DNA from: a bacterium
GTDB lineage: Bacteria; Zhuqueibacterota; Zhuqueibacteria; Residuimicrobiales; Krinioviventaceae
Length of the DNA: 39,090 bases
Direction of reading: 5' to 3'
Assembly (NCBI GenBank): GCA_029561455.1
Contig: JAKQIY010000076.1
Location: forward strand, 145,838 to 184,927
Positions 10,278 through 39,090 of this stretch are shown one piece after another. The notes beneath the pieces are model-generated. The model saw nothing but the letters and a program-made list of their open reading frames with translations. It was not told the origin of the DNA and made no database searches. Each line of letters opens with the position of its first letter. The stretch's first letter is position 1. The translations under genes and the position numbers were made by a program.

Positions 10278-10453
10278 GAATTTACCTGATTACTATTACT
10301 CACTTTATAAAAACCGGCGCTGCAGGAGCAGTGATAAAAAAAAAGAATTATTTGGTTAATTACCAACTATCTATAATAGAAAAAAATCCGCTCAAATTCA
10401 AGTAATGAAATTTTTTTCTTATCAATACAAGTGCTTCAATCAACAACATTCAA
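10278..10453. other. Intergenic region between miaA and the J-domain-like gene
   Basis: This AT-rich spacer of 176 bases lies downstream of miaA and upstream of the J-domain-like gene on the minus strand. It presumably carries the promoter of the latter. No hairpin terminator is evident. Confidence 0.4.
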
Positions 10454-11389
10454 TTAAACATGTAATAAATATAACACATTTTCTACAACCATGCCTGTTT
10501 CTGTTACATCCAAATCAATCCAGTGAATGCGTACATCGCGGCGAAACCAGGTTAACTGGCGTTTGGCATAGCGCCGAGAGTTGATCTTGATGCGCTCGAC
10601 CATTTCGTCATAGGTCATCGCACCGGTAAAATGGGCAAACACCTCCTGGTAACCGACAGTTTTCAGGGCATTCAGTTCCGGCCCCCAGCCGCGCTCGCGC
10701 AGGACTTGCACTTCATACAAAAGACCCGCTTGCAGCATAGCGTCCACCCTGCTCTCAATACGGCGGTATAGTGCTTCGCGGTCGCGGTTCAGGCCGACGA
10801 ATACGGGTGTAAATTCCGCCGGGGTCTCTTCGCCTTTGCGGAACGCTGATACCGGCATTCCGGCCAGATCATACACTTCAAGGGCGCGCACCACACGTTG
10901 AGTATCATTCGGGTGCAGGCGCGCCGCAGTAAGCGGATCCACCTGTTCCAGGATACGAAATACCGCCTCGACGCCCTCATTGCGGATGCGCTGCCGCCAC
11001 ATTTCTTTTACTTCAATATCGGAAAGCTTGGGCGCAAACAGGCCATCCACCAGCGCCTGGATGTAAAATCCGGAACCGCCAACCACTACCGGGGGAATGC
11101 CTTGCTCCAGCAGCCCGGCAATACACTGCCGCGCTTCACGGCCGTACTCGCCAGCGCTATAGTACTGGTCGGGATCGCGCATGTCGATAAAATGATGTGG
11201 TACGCGATCAAGTTCTGCTATTGTCGGTTTGGCTGTGCCAATGTCCATATAGCGGTACACCTGGCGGGAATCCGCCGACACAATTTCGCCATGCAGCGCT
11301 TCCGCCACTTGCAGCGCTAGTTCGGTTTTGCCGACCGCAGTCGGCCCGACGATGATGAGGACTTTAAATTCTTTCAAACCGCTTGTCAA
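10454..11389 (-). CDS. miaA: tRNA dimethylallyltransferase MiaA
   Basis: This enzyme transfers a dimethylallyl group to N6 of adenosine 37 in tRNAs that read codons starting with U. The P-loop is LIIVGPTAVGKTELAL near the N-terminus. Further MiaA landmarks are ADSRQVYRYMDIGTAKP, VPHHFID, VVGGSGFYIQALVDGL, the DTQRVVRALEVY helix and the C-terminal YAKRQLTWFRRD. The length of about 310 is normal. The start is uncertain: TTG at 11389 has GGAGG only 3 bases before it, and a second TTG at 11377 would give the more usual MKEFKVLIIVGPT beginning. The first 26 bases lie inside the end of mutL, so the pair is coupled. Confidence 0.96.
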   Translation of the reverse strand: MTSGLKEFKVLIIVGPTAVGKTELALQVAEALHGEIVSADSRQVYRYMDIGTAKPTIAELDRVPHHFIDMRDPDQYYSAGEYGREARQCIAGLLEQGIPPVVVGGSGFYIQALVDGLFAPKLSDIEVKEMWRQRIRNEGVEAVFRILEQVDPLTAARLHPNDTQRVVRALEVYDLAGMPVSAFRKGEETPAEFTPVFVGLNRDREALYRRIESRVDAMLQAGLLYEVQVLRERGWGPELNALKTVGYQEVFAHFTGAMTYDEMVERIKINSRRYAKRQLTWFRRDVRIHWIDLDVTETGMVVENVLYLLHV

Positions 11390-20338: not shown

Positions 20339-23300
20339 ATGAGAACAAACCATTTTCCAAATGCGGGATTACTTTTCATAGCGCTGATTTTCATCAACTT
20401 TTACAGCCTTGCAGCAACTGATATGGCCGATTTAATATTATATAATGGTAAAATCATTACCGTCGATGAGCAAGATCGTATTTACCAGGCAATTGCCGTT
20501 AAAGACGGCAGGATATTACAACTCGGCAGTGATGCTGAAATTACGCCACTAACCGATCCGCGTACAAAGACGATTAACCTGCAAGGCAAAACCGTAACAC
20601 CGGGGCTGATTGACTCCCATTACCACATGATGTATTATGGAGCGCAATTCTGGCCGGGATACCTGAATATACGCCATGAAATAGTCACCAGCAAAGCCGA
20701 ACTCTTACAGGTTGTTGGTGATTATGCCCAACAATTACAACCCGGACAATGGATTTCCGGCAACCAGGGTTTTACCCTGCAATTCGGAGAAACCCTGGAT
20801 CGCTGGGATCTGGATGCGGTTGCGCCCAATAATCCCTGTTACCTGCGGCATTGCAGCGGCCAGTACTCGGTTGTGAATTCGGCAGCGCTGGATAGCGCCG
20901 GAATCGACCGGGATACGCCTAATCCCCCCGGCAGCCTGATCATGAAAGACGAGTTCGGCGAGCCTAACGGACTTTTATCCCATTACCCTGCCGAGAACCT
21001 GGTTGGAAAATACGCCACCGGCTATGGCGACCGTACCGATCAACAAAAACTGGAGGATATTGAACGCGGCCAGCAGCTTTGCCTGCAGGCCGGTTATACA
21101 TCCATTCAGGACGTTATCATCGGCAGTATTAAAGATATTCAACTCTATAAACAGTATGCCGATAGCGGCTTACTCAAAGTGCGTTTGTATACCATGCTGT
21201 TATTAAATACGGAGCAGCAAGTGGATACCCTGGTACAAATGTATCAACCAATCGATTCCGGCCTGGTGCGTTTTGGCGGCTGGAAACTGGCAATGGATGG
21301 CGGCCTGGCAGCCAAAACCATGTTAATGTATGATAAATCATTATACGCTTCTGAAATATCCTATCCCTATCATACCCAGGAAGAGATGAACAGGATGGTC
21401 AAAAAATTACACGATACCGGTTTGCAGGTAGCTGTACATGTAGGCGGCGATGAAGGGATCGATATGACCCTCACCGCCTTTGAACTCGCCATGCAGCAAA
21501 ACCCGCGTCCCGATCCCCGGCACAGGATTGAACATGGTTTATTCCCTTCACCCAGCGCTTTGACACGCATGAAGAATGCCAATATCATCCTTTCCACCCA
21601 GCCACAATGGATTACCTGGTACGGTGATAGTTATGTGTTATTAACCGATAATACCACAATGGACAGGCTATTGCCATTGAAAACCATGCTGGATATGGAT
21701 ATTCATCTCGCTTTTGGCTGCGATGTTCCGGCCTCGATATACCAGGAACCTAAATATGCTTTTTGGGGAGCCACCATGCGACGCAGTCCAATGTCAGGCG
21801 CGAATTTTACTCCCGCAGAAAAAATTAACATGCACGAAGCTCTGCGGATACATACCATGGGTTCGGCGTATGCCGGCTTTGCCGAAACCACCACCGGTTC
21901 GCTGGAGCCGGGTAAATATGCCGATATGGTGATCTGGTCGCACGATCTGTATAATATAACGCCTCAGGAATCTTTTGACCTGGCGGCGGAAATGACGATT
22001 GTCGGCGGAGAAATTCTTTATGATGATGGTCAAAATCCTGTTATTACAAATACAAATAAATGGGTTTCGGTTGGACCGATGTTGGCTAGCCGGATGAATC
22101 ACACTGCAACATTATTAAATAATGGCACAGTACTGATAACGGGATGGGAAACAAATAACTGTGAACTGTACGATCCGGCAAGTCAAACATTTAGCGCCAC
22201 CGGCGCTACTCTTTATAATCACCGGGAAGCAGCAACCGCTACTTTGCTGAATAATGGTTTGGTCTTGCTGGCGGGAGGTTACAATGCCCCTCAAAAAGCG
22301 GAATTATATGACCCGGGTATCGGTACTTTTAAATTGACCGACAGTTTAAAAGCTGAACATACCTATCACACCGCCACCTTGCTTCCTGATGGCAGGGTAT
22401 TGATCGCCGGTGGCCAGTCACCCACCGGCCCGCAGACCCAGGCAGTAGTTGAAATTTATGATCCTGTAACCAACAAATTCTCTTTAACCGACAGCTTGAT
22501 TGAAGACCGTGCTTCACATACTGCCGCATTGTTACCAAATGGTTTGGTATTAATTGCCGGCGGATTAAAAACTACCACACCGGGACATGCGGTAGGTCTT
22601 AAATCATGTGAGCTCTATGATCCATCCAGTGGAACATTTATCCAGGCTCAACCAATGAATGTATACAGGAATAGTTTCAGTGCAACATGTCTTAATAATA
22701 ATAAAATTCTTGTCTGTGGCGGAGATTGGTACAATCCCACCGGTGAATTATACGATTATATTACAGATACCTGGACTCTGACTGGTGATATGGTTTCATT
22801 AAGACAGATGCAACATACGGCCACCTTGTTGAAAAATGGTCAAGTATTAATAACTGGTGGTTTCCTTGGGGGGGCAATGAACGCTTCTGAAATATTTAAT
22901 CCGGACAATAACGAGTTTACAACAACTGATAGTATGATTGTTCCAAGAAGAGGTCATAGTGCGACCTTGCTGGCTGATGGCTGCGTACTGGTTACCGGGG
23001 GATACAGTGGAACCGACGCCACCAACCTGGCTGAACTGTATGTTACAGAAAATATAACAAATGTAAAAAAGCCGGAAAAAGGAAAAATCCGGAATTCTAC
23101 ACCGGCAGATTTTACCTTGTCGCAAAATTATCCCAATCCATTCAATCCGGTAACATATTTAAATTATAATCTGACAAAACCGGCGCAGGTAACGATTGCG
23201 GTTTACAACATCCGCGGCGAATTGGTGCACACCCTGATTGACGCCAAACACAGTCCCGGCGAATACCGGGTTACCTGGGATGGTACATCTGCTGATGGCT

Positions 23301-23383
23301 CGCCGGTCGGCAGTGGTATGTACCTCGTGCGTATGCAAGCCGGCAAACAGGTAGAGTGCCGTAAAGTAGTTTATTTAAAGTAA
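20339..23383 (+). CDS. Fusion: amidohydrolase + seven-unit Kelch-like propeller + sorting tail
   Basis: This is a 1014-residue exported protein. Residues 1-26 are a signal peptide. Residues about 30-560 are an Amidohydro_3 (YtcJ-like) metal-dependent hydrolase: VTPGLIDSHYHMM with the metal His pair H94/H96, then VHVGGDEGID, RHRIEHG and LAFGCDVPAS, ending in the LEPGKYADMVIWS strand. Residues about 575-905 hold seven Kelch / galactose-oxidase-like units, each with HTATLL, then VLIAGG and an ELYDP-type strand, enough to close a seven-bladed propeller. The last 95 residues are a FlgD-like sorting tail with QNYPNPFNPVTYLNY. AAGGAG precedes the ATG. The substrate is unknown. The junction is in frame and smooth, so this looks like a real fusion. 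Confidence 0.87.
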   Translation: MRTNHFPNAGLLFIALIFINFYSLAATDMADLILYNGKIITVDEQDRIYQAIAVKDGRILQLGSDAEITPLTDPRTKTINLQGKTVTPGLIDSHYHMMYYGAQFWPGYLNIRHEIVTSKAELLQVVGDYAQQLQPGQWISGNQGFTLQFGETLDRWDLDAVAPNNPCYLRHCSGQYSVVNSAALDSAGIDRDTPNPPGSLIMKDEFGEPNGLLSHYPAENLVGKYATGYGDRTDQQKLEDIERGQQLCLQAGYTSIQDVIIGSIKDIQLYKQYADSGLLKVRLYTMLLLNTEQQVDTLVQMYQPIDSGLVRFGGWKLAMDGGLAAKTMLMYDKSLYASEISYPYHTQEEMNRMVKKLHDTGLQVAVHVGGDEGIDMTLTAFELAMQQNPRPDPRHRIEHGLFPSPSALTRMKNANIILSTQPQWITWYGDSYVLLTDNTTMDRLLPLKTMLDMDIHLAFGCDVPASIYQEPKYAFWGATMRRSPMSGANFTPAEKINMHEALRIHTMGSAYAGFAETTTGSLEPGKYADMVIWSHDLYNITPQESFDLAAEMTIVGGEILYDDGQNPVITNTNKWVSVGPMLASRMNHTATLLNNGTVLITGWETNNCELYDPASQTFSATGATLYNHREAATATLLNNGLVLLAGGYNAPQKAELYDPGIGTFKLTDSLKAEHTYHTATLLPDGRVLIAGGQSPTGPQTQAVVEIYDPVTNKFSLTDSLIEDRASHTAALLPNGLVLIAGGLKTTTPGHAVGLKSCELYDPSSGTFIQAQPMNVYRNSFSATCLNNNKILVCGGDWYNPTGELYDYITDTWTLTGDMVSLRQMQHTATLLKNGQVLITGGFLGGAMNASEIFNPDNNEFTTTDSMIVPRRGHSATLLADGCVLVTGGYSGTDATNLAELYVTENITNVKKPEKGKIRNSTPADFTLSQNYPNPFNPVTYLNYNLTKPAQVTIAVYNIRGELVHTLIDAKHSPGEYRVTWDGTSADGSPVGSGMYLVRMQAGKQVECRKVVYLK

Positions 23384-24182: not shown

Positions 24183-26330
24183 ATGAAATCTCAAAATTAT
24201 ATTTTGGCAACATTGATTATATTCCTCTACACAATAATATTTCTGATCATTGGCACACCCGTTACAGGAATTGCAGCACCAGGAAATGCCCTTGCTTTTG
24301 ATGGCGTGGATGATTATGTTACCACTGCCGATATTGATAACGCTTTGACAGGGTTCACAATTGAAGCCTGGGTTAAATGGAACCCATCAATCACTACAGA
24401 TGTTCAGTTTATCTGTGGTAAAGGCGTAGAACAACTCGAACTCCACACCGGCGGCGGCGCCGGCGCAAACGGCCTCCGCTTCATCCCCGTTACCGGGGTA
24501 TATCTTGATGCTGCTACTGTTTTACCAACCGGGCAATGGACTCATATTGCTGCTGTTTATAATCCTGCAACTTCGGTCGCCAAACTATACGTCAACGGAA
24601 TTGAAGAAACGCTTACGAACAATGGCCCTAATCCATTATATCCAGCAGTTGCCAATACGGCAATTCCCTTTTACATCGGGCGCCGAAGCGATAATATGTA
24701 CTATTTCAAAGGAATGATTGATGAGGTAAGGGTTTGGAATACTGTACGTTCTCAGGCACAGATTCAACAATACATGGATATCGAGGTCAGTCCTTCAGCC
24801 GGCGGATTAATTGAATACCATGATTTTAATGAAGGAACTCCCGGCGGTAATAACGCCGGCGTTACCAATCTGCCGGATTTAACCAGCAATAACTATGACG
24901 GTACATTATACAATTTTGCTCTAACCGGGTCAACCTCCAACTGGGTTGCCGGTTTTATCACCAAGGCTACCGTAACCACCGATGCCGCCGCTAATGTAAG
25001 CGCAGACGGGGCAACCCTGAACGGTACGGTGAATGCCAACAACGCCAGTACTACTGTAACCTTTGAGTATGGACTGACAACCGGTTATGGTTCAACTGTC
25101 ACTGCCGATGAAAGTCCGGTTACCGGCGGAACCGCTACGGCGGTAAGTTACACACTAACCGGCCTGCTTCCTGGCACGACCTATCATTATCGTGCAGTTG
25201 GCGTCAATTCAAAAGGGACAACCAATGGCGATGATGTTACTTTTGATACGGACGATGCGGCCATCACCTTTACCGACGGCAGCGCGTTTACTCCGGCAAT
25301 AACGTTAGGAAGCGCCAACCAGGTCATCGGCCGGTTTACATTGAGCGGCGATGTGGCCGGGGCAGCTTTGACTGCCGCTTCGATCAAACTCAATGGTACA
25401 CGCACAGGATTGTCGAACCTCAAACTATGGTCATCGGCAGATGCTACATTTGAATCCGGTTCCGACACCCAGCTTGGTAGTACTGTTGCCGCCGATCCCG
25501 GCGACGGCGGTTCGGCATCGTTCTCCGGTTTTACCAGTTCTATCGCTACCGGCGGCACGTATTATTTCCTCACCGGTGATGTTGCGGCCGGGGCTACCGG
25601 CATTGTGCAAGGCATCATTGTCGCTAACGCTAACCTTTCCTTTTTTAACGCAACGCTTTCCGGCACAATCACCAACGCCCCGCTTTCAAACGGCGACGCT
25701 TCTCTGCCGGTGGAACTGACTTCCTTCACAGCCACTGTGCAGGGCAATGCCATAGTTTTATCCTGGCAGACCGCAACTGAAACCGACAACCTCGGATTTA
25801 TTTTGGAGCGTTCCGTAGGGGCGGATGATAATCCGCCCGGAGAGGCAGGGACGGGGTGGCAAACCATCGCCTCATACCAGACCCGCAATGAACTCAAAGG
25901 ACAGGGCAACACATCCAGCCGGACGGAATATGCTTTCACGGATCAAACCGTCGAATCCGGGAAAAGCTATTCTTACCGTCTTTCTGATGTCAGCACGAAA
26001 GGAAAGATCACGGTCTATGCTTCTTTATCCATTACAATGGACAACCTTCCTGAGACGACGGAGCTTGGGAAAGCGTATCCGAATCCGTTCAATCCCCAGA
26101 CATTCATAGGCTACGAACTAGCTGAAGACACGGACGTGACCATCAGGGTCTTCGACATGTTAGGACGACAGGTGAAAACTCTCTTCAATGGACACCAGTT
26201 TGCCGGAAGCTACAATGTTTACTGGAACGCGACGGATGAGAGGGGCAACAAAGTGCCCAGCGGAAGCTACATCATTCAGATGAAGACGAAAACGACCCGG
26301 CAAACGCAGAAGGTGATGTTGATGAAGTGA
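24183..26330 (+). CDS. Array paralogue 1: LamG + Fn3 + shared modules + sorting tail
   Basis: This is a 715-residue exported protein. Residues 1-32 are a signal peptide. Residues about 35-205 are a LamG / concanavalin-like domain (ALAFDGVDDYV, FTIEAWVKW, WTHIAAVY, GMIDEVRVWN), usually a carbohydrate- or matrix-binding fold. Residues about 262-357 are fibronectin-III-like (ANVSADGATLNGTV, GLLPGTTYHYRAVG). Residues about 361-505 are shared module A, starting [11 protein letters not shown]. Residues about 507-625 are shared module B (LPVELTSFTATV). The last 85 residues are the FlgD-like tail with [11 protein letters not shown]. Module B holds an extra segment of about ten residues encoded by a palindromic insertion at 25815-25853. 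An adhesin or secreted binding role is inferred. Confidence 0.87.
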   Translation: MKSQNYILATLIIFLYTIIFLIIGTPVTGIAAPGNALAFDGVDDYVTTADIDNALTGFTIEAWVKWNPSITTDVQFICGKGVEQLELHTGGGAGANGLRFIPVTGVYLDAATVLPTGQWTHIAAVYNPATSVAKLYVNGIEETLTNNGPNPLYPAVANTAIPFYIGRRSDNMYYFKGMIDEVRVWNTVRSQAQIQQYMDIEVSPSAGGLIEYHDFNEGTPGGNNAGVTNLPDLTSNNYDGTLYNFALTGSTSNWVAGFITKATVTTDAAANVSADGATLNGTVNANNASTTVTFEYGLTTGYGSTVTADESPVTGGTATAVSYTLTGLLPGTTYHYRAVGVNSKGTTNGDDVTFDTDDAAITFTDGSAFTPAITLGSANQVIGRFTLSGDVAGAALTAASIKLNGTRTGLSNLKLWSSADATFESGSDTQLGSTVAADPGDGGSASFSGFTSSIATGGTYYFLTGDVAAGATGIVQGIIVANANLSFFNATLSGTITNAPLSNGDASLPVELTSFTATVQGNAIVLSWQTATETDNLGFILERSVGADDNPPGEAGTGWQTIASYQTRNELKGQGNTSSRTEYAFTDQTVESGKSYSYRLSDVSTKGKITVYASLSITMDNLPETTELGKAYPNPFNPQTFIGYELAEDTDVTIRVFDMLGRQVKTLFNGHQFAGSYNVYWNATDERGNKVPSGSYIIQMKTKTTRQTQKVMLMK
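25815..25853. repeat. Palindromic repeat inserted in frame in a coding region
   Basis: GGGCGGAT (25819-25826) and ATCCGCCC (25831-25838) flank a GATA loop. The segment encodes VGADDNPPGEAG where all sibling genes have a shorter AGNGAWQ or EGNGAWQ stretch. The flanking protein sequence resumes with GWQTIASYQ, so the insertion keeps the frame. Confidence 0.6.
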
Positions 26331-26447: not shown

Positions 26448-27764
26448 ATGAAAGCACGGGTGCTACTATCGGGTTTTATTCTTGCGCTGGGTTCAGGGCT
26501 TTGCGCCCAATCAATATCCTTTTGGGGAACAGGTCCATTTTCATGTGTTCCTGGGGGTACTTGGCCAAATGCAGGAACATACTCTTTGCCAGGCGCAAAC
26601 GGCTATTCCGTCTATGCTTTCAATGGATGTTGGGTTGTAAATCCAGGAGATTATATATTAAGCGGAGATGGCGACGGCTGCAATACATGGAGTACCTTCA
26701 CCCTTGCAGAAAGAAGCGCCGCCATTACCTTCGTTGATGGCAGCGGCTTCACCTCAAGCGTCGTAAAAGGCGGTTTGAACCAGGCGCTTGGTCGTTTTCA
26801 ACTAACCGGCAGCGCTTCCGGTGCGACATTAACCACCGCCTCCATCAAACTAGATGGTACACGCACCGGGTTAAGCAACTTGAAACTGTGGTCTTCAACC
26901 AACAATACCTTTGAATCCGGTTCCGATACCAAGTTGGGTTCCACAGTCGGTGGCGATCCGGGCGACGGCGGTTCAGTATCCTTCTCCAGTTTCTCCAGTT
27001 CCATCGGAACCGGCGGGACGTATTACTTTTTAACCGGCGATGTTGCGGCCGGGGCCACCGGGATAGTACAAGGCGTCATTGTCGCCAACGGCAACCTTAC
27101 GATTTCCGATGGAACCCTGTCCGGCTCGATTGATAACGCCCCGCTCTCCAACGGCGATGCTTCACTGCCTGTGGAACTTGCATCTTTTACCGCCTCTGTG
27201 CAGGGCAATGCTGTTGTGCTAAACTGGCAGACCGCCAGTGAAACCGACAACCTCGGCTTTATCCTGGAACGCGCGGCTGGCAACGGCGCCTGGCAGCCAA
27301 TAGCGTCATACAAAACCAACCCAGCTTTAAAAGGTCAGGGCAATGCTTCAACAACTAACACCTATTCCTTTACGGACAACACGGTTGTCGCCGGTAGCGA
27401 GTACCGCTACCGCCTGGGCGATGTGAATGTTGCAGGGACAGTTACCATGCACTCCCCCATTTACGTAACTACAACGGCCCTGCCACAGAGCACAGTCATG
27501 CTCAATGCGTATCCCAATCCTTTCAACCCGGAAACGACCATTAAATACACCCTGCACAAGGATGCGCAGGTTACTATAACGGTTTACGACCTGCTGGGCC
27601 GCCAGGTCAAGACATTAGTCGATGAAAATCAGGTCGCCGGCGCGTACCATGTTATCTGGAACGGAACCGATGCTGCCGGTTCGCAGGCCGCCAGCGGCGC
27701 GTACCTGGTGCGCATGGAAACGGCAGAGGTTACGCAAACGCAAAAAGTGCTGCTGTTGAAATAA
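26448..27764 (+). CDS. Array paralogue 2: short Cys-containing domain + shared modules + sorting tail
   Basis: This is a 438-residue exported protein. Residues 1-20 form a signal peptide ending SGLCA. Residues about 21-90 are a small unrecognised domain rich in Gly, Trp and Tyr with three Cys (FSCVPGG, NGCWVV, DGCNTW). Residues about 92-238 are shared module A (ITFVDGSGFT), about 240-350 module B (LPVELASFTASV), and the last 87 the FlgD-like tail ([14 protein letters not shown]). It is the shortest member with module A. Its tail DNA is almost identical to that of paralogue 4 although another member lies between them. The front domain is specific to this gene and its role is unknown. Confidence 0.83.
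   Translation: MKARVLLSGFILALGSGLCAQSISFWGTGPFSCVPGGTWPNAGTYSLPGANGYSVYAFNGCWVVNPGDYILSGDGDGCNTWSTFTLAERSAAITFVDGSGFTSSVVKGGLNQALGRFQLTGSASGATLTTASIKLDGTRTGLSNLKLWSSTNNTFESGSDTKLGSTVGGDPGDGGSVSFSSFSSSIGTGGTYYFLTGDVAAGATGIVQGVIVANGNLTISDGTLSGSIDNAPLSNGDASLPVELASFTASVQGNAVVLNWQTASETDNLGFILERAAGNGAWQPIASYKTNPALKGQGNASTTNTYSFTDNTVVAGSEYRYRLGDVNVAGTVTMHSPIYVTTTALPQSTVMLNAYPNPFNPETTIKYTLHKDAQVTITVYDLLGRQVKTLVDENQVAGAYHVIWNGTDAAGSQAASGAYLVRMETAEVTQTQKVLLLK
27222..27589 (+). repeat. Near-identical block, copy 1 (partner 31489-31856)
   Basis: Over 368 bases this block differs from 31489-31856 at only five positions by direct comparison. Identity falls off sharply at both edges. It covers module B and the start of the sorting tail. 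Confidence 0.9.
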
Positions 27765-27817
27765 AAAATTTAAATTCAGAATATATTATATAGATTTTAA
27801 AATGAAAAGGAATTAAC

Positions 27818-29500
27818 ATGAATACTGATATGAAAAATTCCCTACTGGTTATTTTCATCTGTATAACATTTATGACACAATCCCTGTGGGCGTTCATTGG
27901 CAGCGGTTCAGGTACCGAAGGTAGCCCTTATATTGTTACTTCGGCGGCGGAACTCAATGACGTGCGCAACGATTTAACCGCTTATTACCGGCAAACTGCG
28001 AATATAAGTCTCAGTGGTTATGATAGCTGGACGCCAATTGGAACCGGATCAGCCACTTCTACGGCTTTCACCGGAACCTATGACGGCAATGGGCATAAAG
28101 TGACCGGGCTAACCATTACAAGTTATTCTTCTGCCGGGGCAGGACTGTTTGGCTATAATAGAGGTACAATTAAAAATCTGGGCGTTTCGGGCTCGGTAAG
28201 CGCTACAGCTACCAGTGCAGGAATTCTAGCCGGACTGAACTATTATGGAACGATGCAGAATTGTTATACGGAAGGCTCCGTTACTTCCTCAAGTAATTAT
28301 GTTGGAGGTTTTGTCGGGTCTTGTTCTTATAGCACAACAGGTATTACACAATGTTATTCCACGGCAACAGTTACCGCAACTGGTGCTGGTTCCATGAATG
28401 TAGGCGGATTCGTTGGCCATACCAATAATTCTGGCGCTACCATAAGCGAATGTTATTGCACGGGAAATGTTACTAACAACAACACAACAAGTGCTAATGC
28501 AAATACCGGTGGGTTTGTCGGGGCATCGGCATTAACCATTAGTAATTGTTATGCGACGGGAAATGTTTCATGCAGCGGCAGTCGTATTGGTGGATTTTGT
28601 GGATTTGCCTCCTATAACACGCCAATTTCATATTGCTATTCTACCGGAACCGTTACAGGTGGTAGCACCATAGGCGGCTTTGTAGGTTATTACAATACTG
28701 GAACATTTACCAGTTGTTTTTTTAATCACGATAATGCAAATATGTCATCGTATGGAGGGTATGCGACCTCTGCACCAACCGGTATTACGGCAGCAACAAC
28801 AGCCGATATGAAAACCGCATCGACCTACAGCAGTTGGAGTACCAGTTACTGGAATCTGACGAACGGCAGTTATCCCACGCTCAAATGCTTCGATGAATCC
28901 CTGCCCGTGGAACTCTCTTCCTTTACCGCCACTGTGCAGGGCAATACTATTGTTCTAAACTGGCAAACTGAAAGCGAAACCGATAACCTCGGCTTTACCC
29001 TGGAACGCGCGGAGGGTGACGGCGCCTGGCAACAGATCGCCTCGTACCAAACCAGTGATGCGCTAAAAGGCCAGGGCAACACCTCCACGACCACCAGTTA
29101 TACCTGGACCGACGCCGGTGTTGCACCGAACAGTGGGTACCGCTACCGCCTGGGCGATGTGAATGTTGCTGGGACAGTAACCATGCACTCCCCCATTGCC
29201 GTTACAATGACCGCTTTGCCGCAGAGTACGGAATTGCTGAATGCTTATCCGAATCCCTTCAACCCGGAAACGACTATCAACTATCAATTGCACAAGGACT
29301 CGCAGGTTACCATAACGGTTTATGACCTGCTGGGCCGCAAAGTTAAAACATTAATCGATGAACAGCAAGCCGCCGGATCGTACCGGACGCTATGGAACGG
29401 TACGGATAACAGTGGCGCCAAAGCCGCCAGCGGCGCGTACCTGGTACGGATGGAAACCCAGGAGGTAACACAAATACAAAAAGTACTTTTACTAAAATAG
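27818..29500 (+). CDS. Array paralogue 3: GLUG repeats + module B + sorting tail
   Basis: This is a 560-residue exported protein. Residues 1-25 form a signal peptide ending SLWA. Residues about 30-110 have the usual lead-in of GLUG proteins (SPYIVTSAAELNDVR, FTGTYDGNGHKVTGL). Seven units of the GLUG type then run from about 113 to 320, with patterns such as GGFVGxxxxxTISNCYATGNV; each has a conserved Cys-Tyr. These units form a right-handed beta-helix and are known from surface proteins and some adhesin-like or peptidase-linked proteins. Module A is absent. Module B (LPVELSSFTATV) starts about 365 and the FlgD-like tail ([14 protein letters not shown]) fills the last 85 residues. AAAGGAA precedes the ATG. 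Confidence 0.87.
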   Translation: MNTDMKNSLLVIFICITFMTQSLWAFIGSGSGTEGSPYIVTSAAELNDVRNDLTAYYRQTANISLSGYDSWTPIGTGSATSTAFTGTYDGNGHKVTGLTITSYSSAGAGLFGYNRGTIKNLGVSGSVSATATSAGILAGLNYYGTMQNCYTEGSVTSSSNYVGGFVGSCSYSTTGITQCYSTATVTATGAGSMNVGGFVGHTNNSGATISECYCTGNVTNNNTTSANANTGGFVGASALTISNCYATGNVSCSGSRIGGFCGFASYNTPISYCYSTGTVTGGSTIGGFVGYYNTGTFTSCFFNHDNANMSSYGGYATSAPTGITAATTADMKTASTYSSWSTSYWNLTNGSYPTLKCFDESLPVELSSFTATVQGNTIVLNWQTESETDNLGFTLERAEGDGAWQQIASYQTSDALKGQGNTSTTTSYTWTDAGVAPNSGYRYRLGDVNVAGTVTMHSPIAVTMTALPQSTELLNAYPNPFNPETTINYQLHKDSQVTITVYDLLGRKVKTLIDEQQAAGSYRTLWNGTDNSGAKAASGAYLVRMETQEVTQIQKVLLLK

Positions 29501-29622
29501 GTTAATTGCTTTACTGTTATGTATATATGATTCATTCTATAACGGATTACATTCCATATATTTTCTAACCAATAAAATATAATCACTTGGTGAGACAATA
29601 AAGACAAAGGAAAGGGATTAAT

Positions 29623-32031
29623 ATGTTAACAATTAAGTTGATAAGAAATTTAATTTATTCCCCCTGGTTGACATTAATTTTGTTATTAATCCTGGGAGAA
29701 GCTTCGCTGTTTGCCAATAACGGCCTTGTGATTGGCTGGCATGAAGGAACTGGTTCATACTGGTCCCATTCCGAACTTGGTATCCCACCCAATTATGATA
29801 AACCGCTCTCCGTGACAACCACTCACGGCACAATATACGGCACATTAGGGGCGGGTGAACCCACCGCCGGCGCGAAATGGGCTTACGGTCCGGAATGGGA
29901 TAACGGCAGCGGCACAAAAGGATGGGTTTTCCCCATGACCACGTCCGGTTTTGAAAATCTGACCCTGACATTTTATCAGAAGAGCAGGGATCAATCATCT
30001 CAGTACGGTCCCCGTGATTTCAAGCTCCAGTATAGTACTAACGGCAGTTCCTGGACTGACGTAGCCGGAACCAGCTTTGTTCTGACAAATAGTTGGCAGC
30101 AATTCAACGCCACATTACCTTCCGCTTGTGATGAACAAGCCACTCTTTATTTGAAATGGGTGATGAGCAGCAATGTTTCGATCAACGGCGGAGCGATTGT
30201 AGCGGAAGCGATGTCGGAATTTGCGGATTTCTATATGAACGGCGACGAGCTTCCCCTGCCCATCACCGACGTCAGCCTGAGCAATACTTCAATCAGCAGC
30301 AATAAGCCGTCCGGAACCACAGTTGGCGATCTCAGTCATACGGATGCCAACTATTATGATACTCATACATATTCCCTGGTTGCAGGAGAAGGCGATACCG
30401 ACAACAGCAGTTTTGCCATCGCTGGTACAACCTTAAAGACCGCCGCCGTGCTATCCGCCGGGGATTATTCGATTCGGGTGCAGGTCGATGACGGGACATA
30501 TACATTGGCTGAAATCTATACTATCACCGTGACCGCCTATCCGTCTGTTATTGTGGAAAATTCTGAAGATAATGCCTATTGGTGGATCACCCGCGTTCAA
30601 TTTGGCGATATTGACAAGTCCAGCGGAATGTCGGGCACTAACAATGCTGATGGGTATAGCGATTATACTAGTGAATCTGCCGGCGTTACCAGGGGGCAAT
30701 CCATTGATCTGACGGTTACCGTTAATATACCGGATGACTATGGGGAATACCTTAACGCTTATTTTGACTGGAATCGCGATTATGACCTGGAAGATGCCGG
30801 GGAAAAAGTGGAAATAGCAACTATAAGTGGAGAATCGGGAACTATTTCAAAAACTGTAAATGTTACTGTTCCCGCGGACGCCGCATTGGGCAGTACCTTA
30901 ATGAGGGTTGCAATCGACTATTATGGCAATATGGCATTAGGGGTTGCCGATATTGGCGAAGTGGAAGACTATACAATAGATATTGTTTATGTTACCTTTA
31001 CCAACGGCAGCGCTTTCACATCTGCCGTTACTCCGGGCAACGGTAACCAGGCGCTTGGTCGTTTTCAACTAACCGGCAGCGCTACCGGCGCCACATTAAC
31101 CGCCGCCTCCATAAAACTAAATGGTACACGCACCGGTTTAAGCAACTTGAAACTGTGGTCTTCAACCAACAATACCTTTGAATCCGGTTCCGACACCCAA
31201 CTTGGTTCTACCGTAGCCGTCGACCCGGGCGACGGCAGTTCCGCTTCGTTCTCCGGCTTTAGCAGCGCCATTGGCACAAGTGGCACTTACTATTTCCTCA
31301 CCGGCGATATTGCCGCCGGAGCCACCGGCGCGGTACAGGGCGTAATAGTAGCTAATGGTAATTTGACTGTTTCCGGCGGAACCCTGTCCGGCACTATCAC
31401 CAATGCTCCGCTTTCTAATGGCGATGCTTCACTGCCAGTGGAACTTGCATCATTTACCGCCGTGGTGCAGGGCAATGCTATAATACTGAACTGGCAGACC
31501 GCCACTGAAACCGACAACCTCGGCTTTATACTGGAACGCGCGGCTGGCAACGGCGCCTGGCAGCCAATAGCGTCATACAAAACCAACCCAGCTTTAAAAG
31601 GTCAGGGCAATGCTTCAACAACTACCACCTATTCCTTTACGGACAACACGGTTGTCGCCGGCAGCGAGTACCGCTACCGCCTGGGCGATGTGAATGTTGC
31701 AGGGACAGTTACCATGCACTCCCCCATTTACGTAACTACAACGGCCCTGCCGCAGAGCACAGTCATGCTCAATGCGTATCCCAATCCTTTCAACCCGGAA
31801 ACGACCATTAAATACACCCTGCACAAGGATGCGCAGGTTACTATAACGGTTTACGATCTGCTTGGCCGCAAAGTGAAAACTTTGATCGATGAGCAGCAGT
31901 CCGCCGGTTCGTACCGGGCAATATGGAATGGTACGGATGCGAGTGGGAATAAAGCTGCCAGCGGCGCGTACCTGGTACAGATGCAAACAGGTGAAATTTC
32001 ACAAACACAAAAAGTGTTACTGCTAAAATAA
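29623..32031 (+). CDS. Array paralogue 4: beta-sandwich + cadherin-like + GEVED + shared modules + sorting tail
   Basis: At 802 residues this is the longest member. Residues 1-30 form a signal peptide. Residues about 32-205 are a Trp- and Tyr-rich beta-sandwich resembling carbohydrate-binding domains. Residues about 210-302 are cadherin-like (ITDVSLSNTSISSNKPSGT). Residues about 305-452 are a GEVED domain: Asp-Trp-Asn-Arg-Asp in a possible Ca-binding loop, then TLMRVAIDY and the signature GEVEDYTI. Module A follows at about 455-600, module B at about 604-712 and the FlgD-like tail to 802. It looks like a multi-domain adhesin, but binding is inferred. Part of module B and the tail is 98-99 percent identical in DNA to paralogue 2. 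Confidence 0.85.
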   Translation: MLTIKLIRNLIYSPWLTLILLLILGEASLFANNGLVIGWHEGTGSYWSHSELGIPPNYDKPLSVTTTHGTIYGTLGAGEPTAGAKWAYGPEWDNGSGTKGWVFPMTTSGFENLTLTFYQKSRDQSSQYGPRDFKLQYSTNGSSWTDVAGTSFVLTNSWQQFNATLPSACDEQATLYLKWVMSSNVSINGGAIVAEAMSEFADFYMNGDELPLPITDVSLSNTSISSNKPSGTTVGDLSHTDANYYDTHTYSLVAGEGDTDNSSFAIAGTTLKTAAVLSAGDYSIRVQVDDGTYTLAEIYTITVTAYPSVIVENSEDNAYWWITRVQFGDIDKSSGMSGTNNADGYSDYTSESAGVTRGQSIDLTVTVNIPDDYGEYLNAYFDWNRDYDLEDAGEKVEIATISGESGTISKTVNVTVPADAALGSTLMRVAIDYYGNMALGVADIGEVEDYTIDIVYVTFTNGSAFTSAVTPGNGNQALGRFQLTGSATGATLTAASIKLNGTRTGLSNLKLWSSTNNTFESGSDTQLGSTVAVDPGDGSSASFSGFSSAIGTSGTYYFLTGDIAAGATGAVQGVIVANGNLTVSGGTLSGTITNAPLSNGDASLPVELASFTAVVQGNAIILNWQTATETDNLGFILERAAGNGAWQPIASYKTNPALKGQGNASTTTTYSFTDNTVVAGSEYRYRLGDVNVAGTVTMHSPIYVTTTALPQSTVMLNAYPNPFNPETTIKYTLHKDAQVTITVYDLLGRKVKTLIDEQQSAGSYRAIWNGTDASGNKAASGAYLVQMQTGEISQTQKVLLLK
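31489..31856 (+). repeat. Near-identical block, copy 2 (partner 27222-27589)
   Basis: This is the partner of the block at 27222-27589, offset by 4267 bases, with five mismatches in 368 bases. Four of the five lie in its first 172 bases. After 31856 the sequence turns toward the version found in paralogue 5. Confidence 0.9.
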
Positions 32032-32044
32032 AAAAACCAATTGA

Positions 32045-32081
32045 ACATTCTCCCGAATGCCAAAAATTCACGGGAGAATGT
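32045..32081 (+). terminator. Intergenic hairpin between paralogues 4 and 5
   Basis: ACATTCTCCCG (32045-32055) and CGGGAGAATGT (32071-32081) form a perfect 11-bp stem. The T-run after it is missing, so it may be a processing or stability hairpin. A close copy recurs in the next intergenic gap. Confidence 0.6.
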
Positions 32082-32127
32082 AATAATAAAATCCACAATA
32101 TCTTTTATAGACAAGGAGAACCATTTT

Positions 32128-33492
32128 ATGAAATTAATACGAACCCGTCTTTTAATATTTCTCGTTATATTTTGCAGTATGGGTTTGATTCAGGCGGCAA
32201 CCACGCTTAGCGCGGGAGATGTGATAATATTGGCAATAAATGGTGATACCGATGCTTCAAATAATTACGGCAGAGGTTTTTCCTTTATGCCATTGGTCAA
32301 CCTGGAGGCGGGAACGATAATCAACTTTACCGATTATGGCTGGAGTGATCTTACCACTGCATTCATAACTAATACTTCAGTTGCCGATGCATTTATCCAT
32401 TATACCGTTCCGGCAGGCGGCATTACCGCCGGAACTGTTATTCGATGTGATTCTTATTCAAATACAAATTTTACTTTTGATTTTTCCTATTCCGGGTCAG
32501 GCAATAATTATTTAAACACAGCAGGTTTAACCCAGGGTGATGAACTGTTAATTTTTCAGGGAAGCAGATCTACCCCTACTTTTATTTTTGCCGCATCAAT
32601 CGTGAGTACTGCCATAGTAGCATCCGGTTGGGCTACCAATGTGGGCACTAACGGCACCGACGGATCAGGCGCAGGTTCTGCATTACCCCCTGGTTTGAGC
32701 GATGATGCAACAGCCTTGTCATTCAATCGAGACGCTAGCGCTAACGATAATTGTGCCTATTCAGGAACAACAACAGCAGAAACCAGGGCAAATTGGCAAA
32801 ATCGGATTAAAAACTATTCAAACTGGACTTTTAATGATGCAGCTCCAATCCCGACTCCGCTGACCGGTCCTTATACTGTTACAGACGCTTCTTTGCCCGT
32901 AACATTGTCTTCTTTCATTGCCGGCATTCAGGGAAACACGATAGTATTGAATTGGCAAACCGCCAGCGAAACCGACAACCTCGGCTTTACACTGGAACGC
33001 GCGGCAGGCAACAGCGGATGGCAGCCAATCGCATCTTACAGAACCCATCCGGCATTAAAAGGCCAGGGCAACACTTCTACAACCACCACCTATTCCTTTA
33101 CGGATAACACAGTCACAACAGGTACGGAATACCGCTACCGCCTGGGCGATGTCAATGTCGCCGGTGTGGTAACTATGCACTCCCCCATTACCGTAATCAC
33201 AACGGCCCTGCCGCAAACTACGGAAATGTTCAATGCTTATCCTAATCCATTCAATCCTGAAACGACTATCAACTACAAACTGCACAAGGATTCGCAAGTT
33301 ACGATAATTGTGTATGACCTGCTGGGCCGGAAGGTAAAAACATTGATCGATGAACAACAGTCCGCAGGTTCGTACCAGGCGCTATGGAACGGCACGGATG
33401 AAGGCGGCGCCAAAGCCGCCAGCGGCGCATACCTGGTGCGCATGCAAACAGCAGAAGTAACGCAAACGCAAAAAGTTTTACTGGTGAAATAA
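32128..33492 (+). CDS. Array paralogue 5: AGD-type domain + module B + sorting tail
   Basis: This is a 454-residue exported protein. I start it at 32128 because AAGGAGAA lies just before that ATG and a good signal peptide (MKLIRTRLLIFLVIFC...IQA) follows; an in-frame TTG at 32041 would run coding sequence through the hairpin. Residues about 24-250 form a domain that begins TTLSAGDVIILAING, continues with FSFMPLVNLEAGTIINFTDYGW, and has a later LTQGDELLIFQGSRSTPTFIFA. The same domain opens paralogues 6 and 7. I know this pattern from other secreted proteins of the group but cannot give it a function. Module A is absent; module B starts about 262 and the FlgD-like tail about 368. Confidence 0.85.
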   Translation: MKLIRTRLLIFLVIFCSMGLIQAATTLSAGDVIILAINGDTDASNNYGRGFSFMPLVNLEAGTIINFTDYGWSDLTTAFITNTSVADAFIHYTVPAGGITAGTVIRCDSYSNTNFTFDFSYSGSGNNYLNTAGLTQGDELLIFQGSRSTPTFIFAASIVSTAIVASGWATNVGTNGTDGSGAGSALPPGLSDDATALSFNRDASANDNCAYSGTTTAETRANWQNRIKNYSNWTFNDAAPIPTPLTGPYTVTDASLPVTLSSFIAGIQGNTIVLNWQTASETDNLGFTLERAAGNSGWQPIASYRTHPALKGQGNTSTTTTYSFTDNTVTTGTEYRYRLGDVNVAGVVTMHSPITVITTALPQTTEMFNAYPNPFNPETTINYKLHKDSQVTIIVYDLLGRKVKTLIDEQQSAGSYQALWNGTDEGGAKAASGAYLVRMQTAEVTQTQKVLLVK

Positions 33493-33591: not shown

Positions 33592-35745
33592 ATGAAATTG
33601 ATACAATCATTGTTATTATTAACTCTCGTAATTTTATGCAGTACAGGTTTGATTCAAGCGGCAACTACGCTCAGCGCTGGTGATATTGCCTTTGTAATGT
33701 TTAATAATGGCGCCGACCCCATGACGTGGGCATGGGTTCCTTTAGTTGATATATCATCAGGCACAACAATCTATTTTACAGATAACGGATGGGATGGTGT
33801 TGATTTAAACGCTTTTGGTTATTCTGAAGCAGATTTAGCTACTAATAATGATGATTACTTGACTTTTGTAACTACCAGTTCTATCTCAAAAGGAACTGTA
33901 ATCTCAGTTTCCGGCACCACATTTTCACCTAGTTACGGTACAGTAACCGCTTATAATACTGCTCCGCCAAGGTCATCTTCGGGAGACCAAATGTTGGCAT
34001 ATCAGGGGTCCTTTGCATCGCCAACATTTATTGCCGGCGTTCATGCCGAATATAATAGTAGTAATTATAACGCCACAACACATTGGAGTGCTACAAATTA
34101 TAGCACAACCCGTGCTTTAGCAACTTCTACATTACCTGAAGGTTTAACGGACGGGACAAATTGTGTTTCCTTATATCCCGCTATAACTGAACAAGACTAT
34201 GCATATTATAGTGGCTCAACATTGTCAGGTACCAAAGCAGTATTATTGACTGCTATTAACAATTATGCGAATTGGACATCCAACAGCACGACCACTTATA
34301 CATGGGAACGAGGGAATTTAACAGTTACCGCATCATATCCGGAGATAAACGTCCAGGGTAACGGCAATACTATTACCGATGGAGATACTGAACCGACAAC
34401 TACCGACCATACCGATTTTAGTTCGGCAGCGGTAACCGGCGGGTCGGTCGTACGCACTTTTACAATTCAAAATACCGGGGCCGGAACTTTAACTTTGGGC
34501 GCCAATGCCGTATCCCTTACCGGCGACGCCGATTTCACAGTTACGGCGCAACCTGCCACATCAGTGGCGGCAAGTGGCAATACTACTTTTCAGGTTACAT
34601 TTGATCCTGCGGCTGCGGGTTTACGTTCAGCTTCAGTCTCCATTGCTAATGATGATAGCAATGAGAATCCCTACAACTTTGATATTCAGGGCACAGGCAC
34701 AGCCGCCATCACCTTTACCGATGGCAGCGCGTTTACCCCAACAGTTTCCGGCGGTTCCGACCGGGCCATTGGTCGTTTTAGTTTAACCGGCGATGGTACA
34801 GGAGCTAATTTAACCGCCGCATCCATCAAACTCAATGGTACCCGCACGGGATTGAGTAATATCAAATTATGGTCATCCGCTAATGCCACCTTTGAATCCG
34901 GCTCCGATACACAATTGGGTTCCACAGTGGTTGCCGATCCCGGCGACGGCAGTTCCGCTTCGTTCTCTTCATTCTCCAGCGCCATCGGTACGAGCGGCAC
35001 ATATTATTTCCTCACCGGCGATATAGCGGCCGGGGCAACAGGTCATGTGCAGGGAGTAATTGTAGGCAATGCTAATTTGACGGTTTCCGGCGGTACTTTG
35101 ACCGGCTCAATTACCAATGCGCTGCTCTCCATCAGTGATGTCTCCCTGCCGGTCGCGCTCGCTTCTTTCACTGCCAATGTGCAGGGCAATGCCATCGTAT
35201 TGAGCTGGGCGACAGCCAGCGAAACCGATAACCTCGGCTTTACCCTGGAACGCGCCGAAGGTAACAGCGCCTGGCAGCCAATAGCGTCGTACCGGACCTG
35301 TGATGCGCTCAAAGGCCAGGGCAATAAATCTACTACAACCAATTATTCCTGGACCGACGCCGGTGTTGCACCGAACAGCGAGTATCGTTACCGTCTGGCC
35401 AATGTGAATACAGCCGGGACTGTTACTATGCACTCCCCCATTGCTGTAACCATGACAGCCCTGCCGCAGAGCACGGAAATGCTGAATGCCTATCCCAATC
35501 CCTTCAACCCGGAAACATCTATCCAATACAATCTACAGCAAGATTCATACGTGACCATCACAGTCTACGATATACTTGGACGGCAGGTAAAAACGCTCTA
35601 CAGCGGCCAGCAGCCGGCCGGAAGTTATCATACCTATTGGAACGGCACCGATGCCGCCGGCGCTAAATCTGCCAGCGGCGCTTATATCCTTCGGATGGAA
35701 ACTGAAAATTTTAAACAAAATAAAAAAATCATGTTATTAAAATAA
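33592..35745 (+). CDS. Array paralogue 6: AGD-type domain + choice-of-anchor-D-like + shared modules + sorting tail
   Basis: This is a 717-residue exported protein. Residues 1-23 are a signal peptide close to that of paralogue 5. Residues about 24-245 are the same AGD-type domain ([34 protein letters not shown]). Residues about 248-370 are an Ig-like domain of the choice-of-anchor-D / ASH kind ([41 protein letters not shown]). Module A runs about 372-518, module B about 520-630 and the FlgD-like tail to 717. The tail is more divergent than its siblings ([19 protein letters not shown]). It combines parts seen singly elsewhere in the array, which supports module exchange. GGAG precedes the ATG. 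Confidence 0.86.
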
Positions 35746-35884: not shown

Positions 35885-37225
35885 ATGAAATTGCTACGGA
35901 TTATTTTAACAATATCAATTATGATATTCTGGGGTTCAAGCACATTCTCGGCAACTACACTTGGAGCAGGCGATATTGTTATCCTTGAATTTAACGGTAA
36001 TGGAACGGATGGATTTTCTTTTATGCCGTTGGTTAATTTAAGTGCCGGAACTAAAATTAATTTCACCGACTATGGATGGAATGCAGGGTCAGGTACATTT
36101 AATACTACCGATGAGTCTAGCTCAGGTAATGGCAATATGATAACATATACAGCTTCCGGAGCTGTATCTGCAGGTACAATTATAAGACAGGATGCATCAA
36201 ATGTAGGGGGTGCAGAATTTACACCGCACGCGGACTGGGCTTATAATTATAGTAATCAAAATTATATACACGCATTAATGTCTACCGTTGCAGGACATGA
36301 TGGAATTATTGCATTTCAAGGAACACCCACTTCACCGACTTTTATTTGGGCTTATCAAACTGGTCAATGGAATGGCACAGATTATTACTATTGCTCTGAT
36401 CTTCCAACTGGCTTAACTAATGGGGTAAATGCAATTTACTTTGCGGATTTAGAATCGGGATCAGATTTAACTGTGGATGATGGGTATTATAAGGGTCCTT
36501 ATACAGAAGCGACTGCGGCAGATTGGAGAAGTCGAGTTGCAAATAGTAGTAATTGGACCTCTATTGCATCAGGGACAGCGCCTGCGCTTTTATATCCTAA
36601 CACTTATACTGTTACAGACGCTTCATTGCCTGTTAAATTGTCATCCTTTAATGCTAATTTACTGGGTAATAATATTTTCTTATCCTGGCAAACCGAAAGT
36701 GAAACCGACAACCTCGGCTTTGTCCTGGAACGGGCGGAAGGTAACGGCGCCTGGCAGCCAATCGCTTCTTACAAAACCCATCCGGCGCTAAAAGGTAAAG
36801 GAAATGCTTCAACAACTACCACCTATTCCTTTAGGGACAACACGGTTGCCACCGGTACGGAATACCGCTACCGCCTGGGCGATGTGAATACCGCGGGAGT
36901 TGTAACTATGCACTCCCCCATTGCCGTAACTACAACGGTCCTGCCGCAGAGCACGGCAATGCTGAATGCTTATCCCAATCCTTTCAATCCGGAAACGACT
37001 ATCAACTATCAATTGCACATGGATTCTCAGGTTTCAATTACAGTCTATGACCTGCTGGGACGCACAGTAAAAACATTGATCGATGAGCAGCAGGTTGCCG
37101 GTTCGTACCATGCAATCTGGAATGGCACGGATGAGGCCGGTGCAAAAGCTGCCAGCGGCGCGTACCTGGTGCGGATGCAGACGCAGGAGATTACGCAAAC
37201 GCAGAAAGTATTACTGCTGAAATAA
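35885..37225 (+). CDS. Array paralogue 7: AGD-type domain + module B + sorting tail
   Basis: This is a 446-residue exported protein with the same layout as paralogue 5. Residues 1-22 form a signal peptide ending STFSA. Residues about 23-240 are the AGD-type domain (TTLGAGDIVILEFNGNG, FSFMPLVNLSAGTKINFTDYGW, then HDGIIAFQGTPTSPTFIWA). Module A is absent. Module B (LPVKLSSFNANLLGN) starts about 246 and the FlgD-like tail ([14 protein letters not shown]) covers the last 85. The front domain is more AT-rich than the tail, which resembles paralogue 5, so the two halves seem to have different histories. AAAGGAA precedes the ATG. Confidence 0.85.
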   Translation: MKLLRIILTISIMIFWGSSTFSATTLGAGDIVILEFNGNGTDGFSFMPLVNLSAGTKINFTDYGWNAGSGTFNTTDESSSGNGNMITYTASGAVSAGTIIRQDASNVGGAEFTPHADWAYNYSNQNYIHALMSTVAGHDGIIAFQGTPTSPTFIWAYQTGQWNGTDYYYCSDLPTGLTNGVNAIYFADLESGSDLTVDDGYYKGPYTEATAADWRSRVANSSNWTSIASGTAPALLYPNTYTVTDASLPVKLSSFNANLLGNNIFLSWQTESETDNLGFVLERAEGNGAWQPIASYKTHPALKGKGNASTTTTYSFRDNTVATGTEYRYRLGDVNTAGVVTMHSPIAVTTTVLPQSTAMLNAYPNPFNPETTINYQLHMDSQVSITVYDLLGRTVKTLIDEQQVAGSYHAIWNGTDEAGAKAASGAYLVRMQTQEITQTQKVLLLK

Positions 37226-37672: not shown

Positions 37673-39090
37673 ATGAAATCTCTAAAAATCCTGGCCTTTT
37701 GGCTCATTCTTATTACGCCGGTTTTTGCGCAATATCCAACTCTGCCTTATCATCCAAACACTGTCGAACCTGGTAAATATCCGGCGCCATCATCTCCATT
37801 TCAATATAATGATTATATTACCAATGTAACATTTGCGGGTATTAATAATACCACCGGCGCAGTACTTTGGCGAAATAATTATTCCGGCTCTACCCATGGT
37901 AGCGTAGTCAGGGGGCAGGAGTACACTATTTCCGTAACGGTGAATAGTTCGGGCGCCGATTTTTCATACCAACATATTGATGCTTATATCGATTGGGATC
38001 GAAATGGTGATTGCGGGGGAAAAGCTCCCGATCATGGCGGCTCTGGCGCAATTGCTGCAGAGTGTTATGCATTAGGTAGTGGCGCTTCCCATCCGGCAAC
38101 AATGACTTTCGATATTACAGTACCCAATGATGCTGCCATTGGAACTACCTGGCTGAGAGTAACAGTTGAAGGAGATGCAGCAATTGATGCAGAATCTTAT
38201 CTCGGATATTTTGGTTATGGTGAAATAGAAGAATATGGACTTGAAGTTTCTGCCGGAACCCCTGATGTTACTTTTGCCAACGGCAGCGCCTTTACTCCGG
38301 CAATCACCCTGGGCAGCGCCAACCAGGCTATTGGTCGATTTCAATTGACCGGCAGTATTGCGGGCGCTTCACTGACCGCAGCCTCGATAAAACTCAATGG
38401 TACGCGAACCGGTCTGAGTAATCTGAAATTATGGGGCTCAACCGATGCAACCTTCAATTCCGGTTCCGATACCCAGCTTGGTTCAACGGTGGCTGCCGAT
38501 CCTGGCGACGGCAGTTCGGCGTCGTTCTCCGGCTTTAGCAGCGCTATTGGCACAAGTGGAACGTATTATTTCCTCACCGGCGATGTTTCTGCCGAAGCAA
38601 CCGGTATAGTACAGGGCGTTATCGTAGCTAATGGAAATCTAACCGTATCAGGCGGTACTTTGTCCGGCACAATCACCAACGCCCCGCTCTCCAACGGCGA
38701 TGTGTCCCTGCCGGTCGAACTGGCTTCTTTTACTGCTAAAGTAGAAGGTACAACCATTGTGTTGAACTGGGCGACCGCCAGCGAAACCGACAACCTCGGT
38801 TTTATCCTGGAACGCGCGGCAGGCAACGGCGCATGGCAGCCAATCGCTTCATACAAAACCGATGCGGCGTTAAAAGGCCAGGGCAATGCTTCAACAACCA
38901 CCTCCTATTCCTTTATAGACAACACAATCACTACAGGAACGGAATACCACTATCGCCTGGGTGATGTGAACACTGCCGGGATTGTGACCATGCACTCCCC
39001 CATTTCCGTAACCACAACTGCCCTGCCGCAGAGCACGGCAATGCTGAATGCCTATCCCAATCCGTTCAACCCGGAAACCACGGTGAAATA
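37673..39090 (+). CDS. Array paralogue 8: GEVED-type domain + shared modules, cut by window end
   Basis: The frame starts with ATG at 37673 behind AAGGAA and stays open to the last base, giving 472 visible residues. Residues 1-19 form a signal peptide (KSLKILAFWLILITPVFA). Residues about 43-195 resemble a GEVED domain, with DAYIDWDRNGDC as a possible Ca-binding loop and GEIEEYGLEV in place of the usual signature. Module A follows at about 198-340 (VTFANGSAFTP) and module B from about 345 (LPVELASFTAKV). The sorting tail has begun with [13 protein letters not shown] when the window ends; about 75 more residues are expected. Its N-terminal domain is related to one of the internal domains of paralogue 4, so the same part is used in two positions. 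Confidence 0.87.
   Translation, partial: MKSLKILAFWLILITPVFAQYPTLPYHPNTVEPGKYPAPSSPFQYNDYITNVTFAGINNTTGAVLWRNNYSGSTHGSVVRGQEYTISVTVNSSGADFSYQHIDAYIDWDRNGDCGGKAPDHGGSGAIAAECYALGSGASHPATMTFDITVPNDAAIGTTWLRVTVEGDAAIDAESYLGYFGYGEIEEYGLEVSAGTPDVTFANGSAFTPAITLGSANQAIGRFQLTGSIAGASLTAASIKLNGTRTGLSNLKLWGSTDATFNSGSDTQLGSTVAADPGDGSSASFSGFSSAIGTSGTYYFLTGDVSAEATGIVQGVIVANGNLTVSGGTLSGTITNAPLSNGDVSLPVELASFTAKVEGTTIVLNWATASETDNLGFILERAAGNGAWQPIASYKTDAALKGQGNASTTTSYSFIDNTITTGTEYHYRLGDVNTAGIVTMHSPISVTTTALPQSTAMLNAYPNPFNPETTVK

Follow-up and report, generated by a model that had tools for sequence, protein, structure and literature searches.

A recent conversion-like tract shared by two non-adjacent paralogues in an array of genes with type IX sorting tails

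A tandem array of putative type IX cargo genes

The window (the whole stretch of DNA analysed, 39,090 bases) carries a tandem array of related genes, g1 to g8, that combine diverse N-termini with up to two shared modules and a C-terminal sorting tail (Table 1). Each of the seven complete genes, g1–g7, matches the type IX secretion system (T9SS) type A sorting domain (TIGR04183) at 37.7–44.9 bits against a curated cut-off of 23, in a scan of these seven genes. The same genome encodes SprA (TIGR04189, 897.5 bits with its neighbours), Peptidase_C25 proteins at five places and PorV family proteins (18 places pass the cut-off by a single match, and a further place does so together with its neighbours). 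SprA, the five C25-type peptidase places and the many PorV-family matches make a type IX system in this genome likely. The array genes look like T9SS cargo, and their products would be secreted by this route. Just upstream of the array, the gene at 20339-23383 encodes an amidohydrolase in fusion with Kelch repeats and with a T9SS sorting tail.

The window ends at the end of its contig (C80), whose last 81 bases (39010-39090) are identical to bases 1-81 of contig C43 (locus L010). The array goes on in C43 with at least seven further tail genes (h9–h15). Near the junction, an 89-base exact repeat is shared by g8 and h11 (38990-39078 and L010 7650-7738) and ends 12 bases before the contig end. 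The 15 array genes compared here (g1–g8 and h9–h15) are intact open reading frames, having been picked as such, and seven of the 15 contain module A. A gene inside the array that has no sorting tail (L010 5673-6326) may resemble phage tail-collar or microcystin-dependent proteins.

Table 1. Array genes in the window and tracts of low divergence between g2 and g4
Feature	Coordinates	Strand	Description
g1	24183..26330	+	LamG-like N-terminus, module A, module B, T9SS sorting tail
g2	26448..27764	+	Paralogue 2 of the original prediction; unique N-terminus, module A, module B, sorting tail
g3	27818..29500	+	GLUG repeats, module B, sorting tail; without module A
g4	29623..32031	+	Paralogue 4 of the original prediction; GEVED domain, module A, module B, sorting tail
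g5	32041..33492	+	Module B, sorting tail; N-terminus akin to those of g6 and g7
g6	33592..35745	+	Choice-of-anchor-D domain, module A, module B, sorting tail
g7	35885..37225	+	Module B, sorting tail
g8	37673..39090	+	Module A, module B; truncated at the contig end, with the remainder on contig C43
Probable recent conversion tract, g2 copy	27222..27589	+	g2 residues 259-381; 5/368 differences; exact segment edges; pS 0.03 vs 0.60 in flanks
Probable recent conversion tract, g4 copy	31489..31856	+	g4 residues 623-745; counterpart of 27222-27589
Older low-divergence tract, g2 copy (module A)	26778..26926	+	7/149 differences to g4; neighbouring segments 26/54 and 78/295
Older low-divergence tract, g4 copy	31045..31193	+	Offset 4267 from g2 copy

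A sharply bounded block shared by g2 and g4

An ungapped comparison at an offset of 4267 showed that 27222-27589 in g2 and 31489-31856 in g4 differ at only five of 368 positions (27238, 27263, 27358, 27395 and 27485), in agreement with the count given in the original prediction. Two of these, 27358 and 27485, carry states unique to g2 among the 15 genes. Identity to g2 within the block is 98.6% for g4 and 76.6% for the intervening g3, which bears out the earlier description of g3 as clearly more divergent in this region.

We applied a penalised piecewise segmentation to the string of g2/g4 differences across 26724-27761, unsupervised and blind to the block. Five segments were returned: 26724-26777 (26 differences in 54 positions), 26778-26926 (7 in 149), 26927-27221 (78 in 295), 27222-27589 (5 in 368) and 27590-27761 (51 in 172). 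The block edges thus fall at exactly 27222 and 27589, with the nearest mismatches beyond them at 27221 and 27590, and the sharp loss of identity claimed from the sequence was recovered on both sides. The contrast is weaker at the 5′ edge than at the 3′ edge, as the preceding 60 bases are only moderately diverged (pS 0.30).

The block takes in most of module B and the beginning of the type IX sorting domain, without following domain borders; in g2 the tract runs into the TIGR04183 match at residues 355-435. Throughout the block g2 and g4 are mutually nearest and past it no longer so, with a change of nearest neighbour at the 3′ edge. The original prediction had g4 resembling paralogue 5 after 31856. 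Identities there do not single out g5, which stands at 78.5% in DNA identity, level with g3, g8 and h10 (78.5% each), while g7 reaches 79.7%.

Statistical tests for conversion

We built a codon alignment of module B and the tail for the 15 array genes, with g1–g7 taken whole, g8 read across the contig overlap and h9–h15 taken from C43. C43 genes without the tail motif (5673-6326, 8426-9313 and 9606-11060) and the upstream gene at 20339-23383 were left out. Between g2 and g4, synonymous differences amount to 3.0 at 88.7 sites in the block (0.03) and 36.1 at 60.0 sites in the flanks (0.60; Fisher P 3.6e-15 on rounded counts). The resulting block/flank pS ratio of 0.06 is the minimum over 105 gene pairs, for which the next value is 0.60 and the median 0.99. 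The synonymous comparison proposed with the original prediction places the block far below its flanks, as the most extreme of all pairs. Equal synonymous distances in block and flanks, the outcome named beforehand as speaking against conversion, were not found for g2/g4.

The recombination test proposed alongside was run as a GENECONV-like scan, which seeks the best low-difference segment at polymorphic third codon positions and compares it with 300 column shuffles. For g2/g4, 3 of 117 third positions differ inside the segment and 37 of 76 outside it. The log-likelihood ratio (LLR) of 31.9 compares with a permutation maximum of 16.4, and the global P does not exceed 1/301, the smallest value that 300 permutations allow. 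A stricter, exact-run test narrowly missed 0.05 for this pair (global P 0.056). When only the 60 silent sites of invariant codons were used, no pair fell below 0.05 globally, and g2-g4 was outside the 14 best pairs listed. The pair was also missing from the 14 best listed by a first GENECONV-like version that allowed mismatches, where the scores mostly reflected tail swaps of h13.

Gene conversion and alternative explanations

For g2 and g4 the mosaic pattern and its statistical support are direct observations. Together they point, with high confidence, to gene conversion between non-adjacent tandem paralogues within one genome. About 370 bases would have been copied between the two genes by homologous recombination, plausibly through RecA-type strand invasion between their similar 3′ ends, in what was probably a non-reciprocal transfer. 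The tract would be younger than the divergence of its flanks, which gives a relative age. The five point differences would have gathered since the copying; 27358 and 27485 in particular look like later mutations because their states occur only in g2 among the 15 genes. GC3 of the block compared with the flanks indicated no clear donor, g2 or g4. A likely consequence is that the shared tail is now and then homogenised while the N-terminal cargo parts stay different.

The original prediction left the choice between conversion and unequal crossover. A tandem array with similar 3′ ends does suit unequal exchange, and either this or a recent partial duplication could in principle underlie the similarity. 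However, a single crossover or unit duplication predicts identity over a whole unit (about 1.4 kb or more), whereas identity is lost at 27221 and 27590, inside both genes, and a duplication route needs two further exchanges afterwards. The loss of identity on both sides argues against a simple unequal crossover, and we regard crossover or duplication as quite improbable. Strong constraint, acting even on synonymous sites, might instead have kept the block alike, given that it encodes a conserved domain. Across the same columns, the other 104 pairs have pS ratios of 0.60 or more and the 105-pair median is 0.99; because those pairs show no low block/flank ratio, this comparison refutes constraint as the cause, and we give it practically no credence.

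An assembly artefact, with repeats collapsed or mis-joined in a short-read graph, deserves attention given that C80 breaks off within the array and shares an exact overlap of 81 bases with C43, as is usual for contigs from a de Bruijn graph. The exact runs shared inside the g2/g4 block (104, 94 and 89 bases) are all longer than this overlap, so the phasing of the five differences could be wrong. Flanks mispaired through the block would nonetheless still give a divergent–identical–divergent pattern; since swapped flanks leave that pattern unchanged, the case for conversion does not depend on the assembly path. In addition, the block copies are not identical, two of their differences are found only in g2, and the window contains no N. 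We therefore consider an artefact very improbable and retain gene conversion as the preferred reading.

Other exchange signals in the array

The same pair of genes carries a second tract of low divergence in module A (Table 1). In a scan of module A alone across seven genes, 4 of 39 third positions differ inside 26778-26926 and 57 of 88 outside it (global P 0.0066). This tract resembles an earlier, shorter conversion-like exchange of module A, in which g2 and g4 would have exchanged a smaller piece before the block was copied.

Beyond g2-g4, signals depend on the set of genes compared. Three of 105 pairs fell below 0.05 in the 15-gene scan (g2-g4, g2-h13 and h13-h14). A subset of 11 genes, without g1, h12, h13 and h15, gave two of 55 (g2-g4 and g7-h9, the latter driven by divergent ends), and a seven-gene scan of module A, module B and tail gave four of 21 (g2-g4, g8-h11, g6-h11 and g1-g2). 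The g8-h11 pair, which shares the 89-base exact match, may represent a further exchange, though weakly indicated (P 0.17 in the 15-gene scan). The h13 gene (L010 12380-13513) is itself a mosaic: its N-terminus and module B are like those of its neighbour h12, and its tail is nearer to h14 and g2. This arrangement hints at older exchanges of the h13 tail with h14 and with g2.

Several features of the array could fit a broader role for recombination. Module A occurs in only part of the array, h12 and h13 resemble each other across module B and lose that likeness in the tail, and g5, g6 and g7 have N-termini in common, while within the block g3 has its closest match in g6. From these hints it is conceivable, if rather unlikely, that repeated exchange in the common modules and the sorting tail makes them a recombination platform, evening out the secretion signal and shuffling N-terminal cargo parts between genes. 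If so, the array would be a slow generator of new secreted proteins.

Relation to known systems

Gene conversion among bacterial antigens and paralogous surface-protein genes has been reviewed (PMC4534519), and a preprint describes conversion between paralogous genes in Mycobacterium tuberculosis (PMC13061034). The g2/g4 case is similar in that segmental, homology-driven copying within a genome leaves mosaic genes. It differs from antigen-gene conversion as outlined in the review (PMC4534519) in that a conserved tail region was copied instead of a variable antigen region.

Type IX cargo of Porphyromonas gingivalis is reported to undergo domain rearrangement and allelic exchange (PMC5266723). 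There too T9SS cargo genes with shared modules are rearranged by recombination, but the exchange described is mainly between strains, whereas g2 and g4 are paralogues of one genome. Unlike P. gingivalis, the source lineage has tails closest to those of candidate phyla, and no disease role is implied. Among the titles and abstract openings covered by a literature search, which left most subscription journals outside its coverage, we found nothing on conversion between T9SS tails.

The g2/g4 exchange is an unusually clear case of a known process and involves no new mechanism. It provides a well-bounded example, from a bacterium beyond the usual models, of conversion among T9SS-type cargo paralogues, and a warning that phylogenies inferred from such tails combine different histories. 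Should exchange turn out to recur among strains, it would be relevant to the evolution of secretion-system cargo repertoires.

Tails and exchange beyond the array

We also scanned six contigs of other genomes, chosen by eye among the matches listed, that each carry at least two tails (16 tails and 15 within-contig pairs; a third tail on one contig, G013:C307, was left out). No scan fell below 0.05; tails in these contigs are 49–57% identical, with a longest exact match of 29 bases. In the source genome, a cluster of three tails on contig C36 gave nothing significant (best P 0.149). Whole-gene scans of a five-gene cluster on contig C30 placed two of ten pairs below 0.05 (c3-c4, P 0.0033; c2-c4, P 0.0133), signals that mainly contrast N- with C-terminal parts, and module B and tail alone gave a best P of 0.35. 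Because the six relatives' contigs and the C36 and C30 clusters yielded none, clear tracts appear confined, as far as we looked, to the array that contains g2 and g4.

Using the flanking gene at 15155-17872, we looked for the syntenic locus in five relatives and obtained partial or distant matches in two, with no empty or orthologous site among the five. Tails of this kind were present in 20 of 20 genomes (the source genome and 19 relatives). Outside the source genome, the best-scoring tail matches the 200-residue query at 47% amino-acid identity, and no match listed from another genome exceeds 49%. A tail search identified 78 loci in several named candidate phyla, the best at 57% identity. 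Ten other tails of the array itself are 73–90% identical to that of g2. A second cluster of five related genes (L012 9117-16705) has similar tails, among which exact matches reach 89 and 86 bases, whereas the N-termini diverge more.
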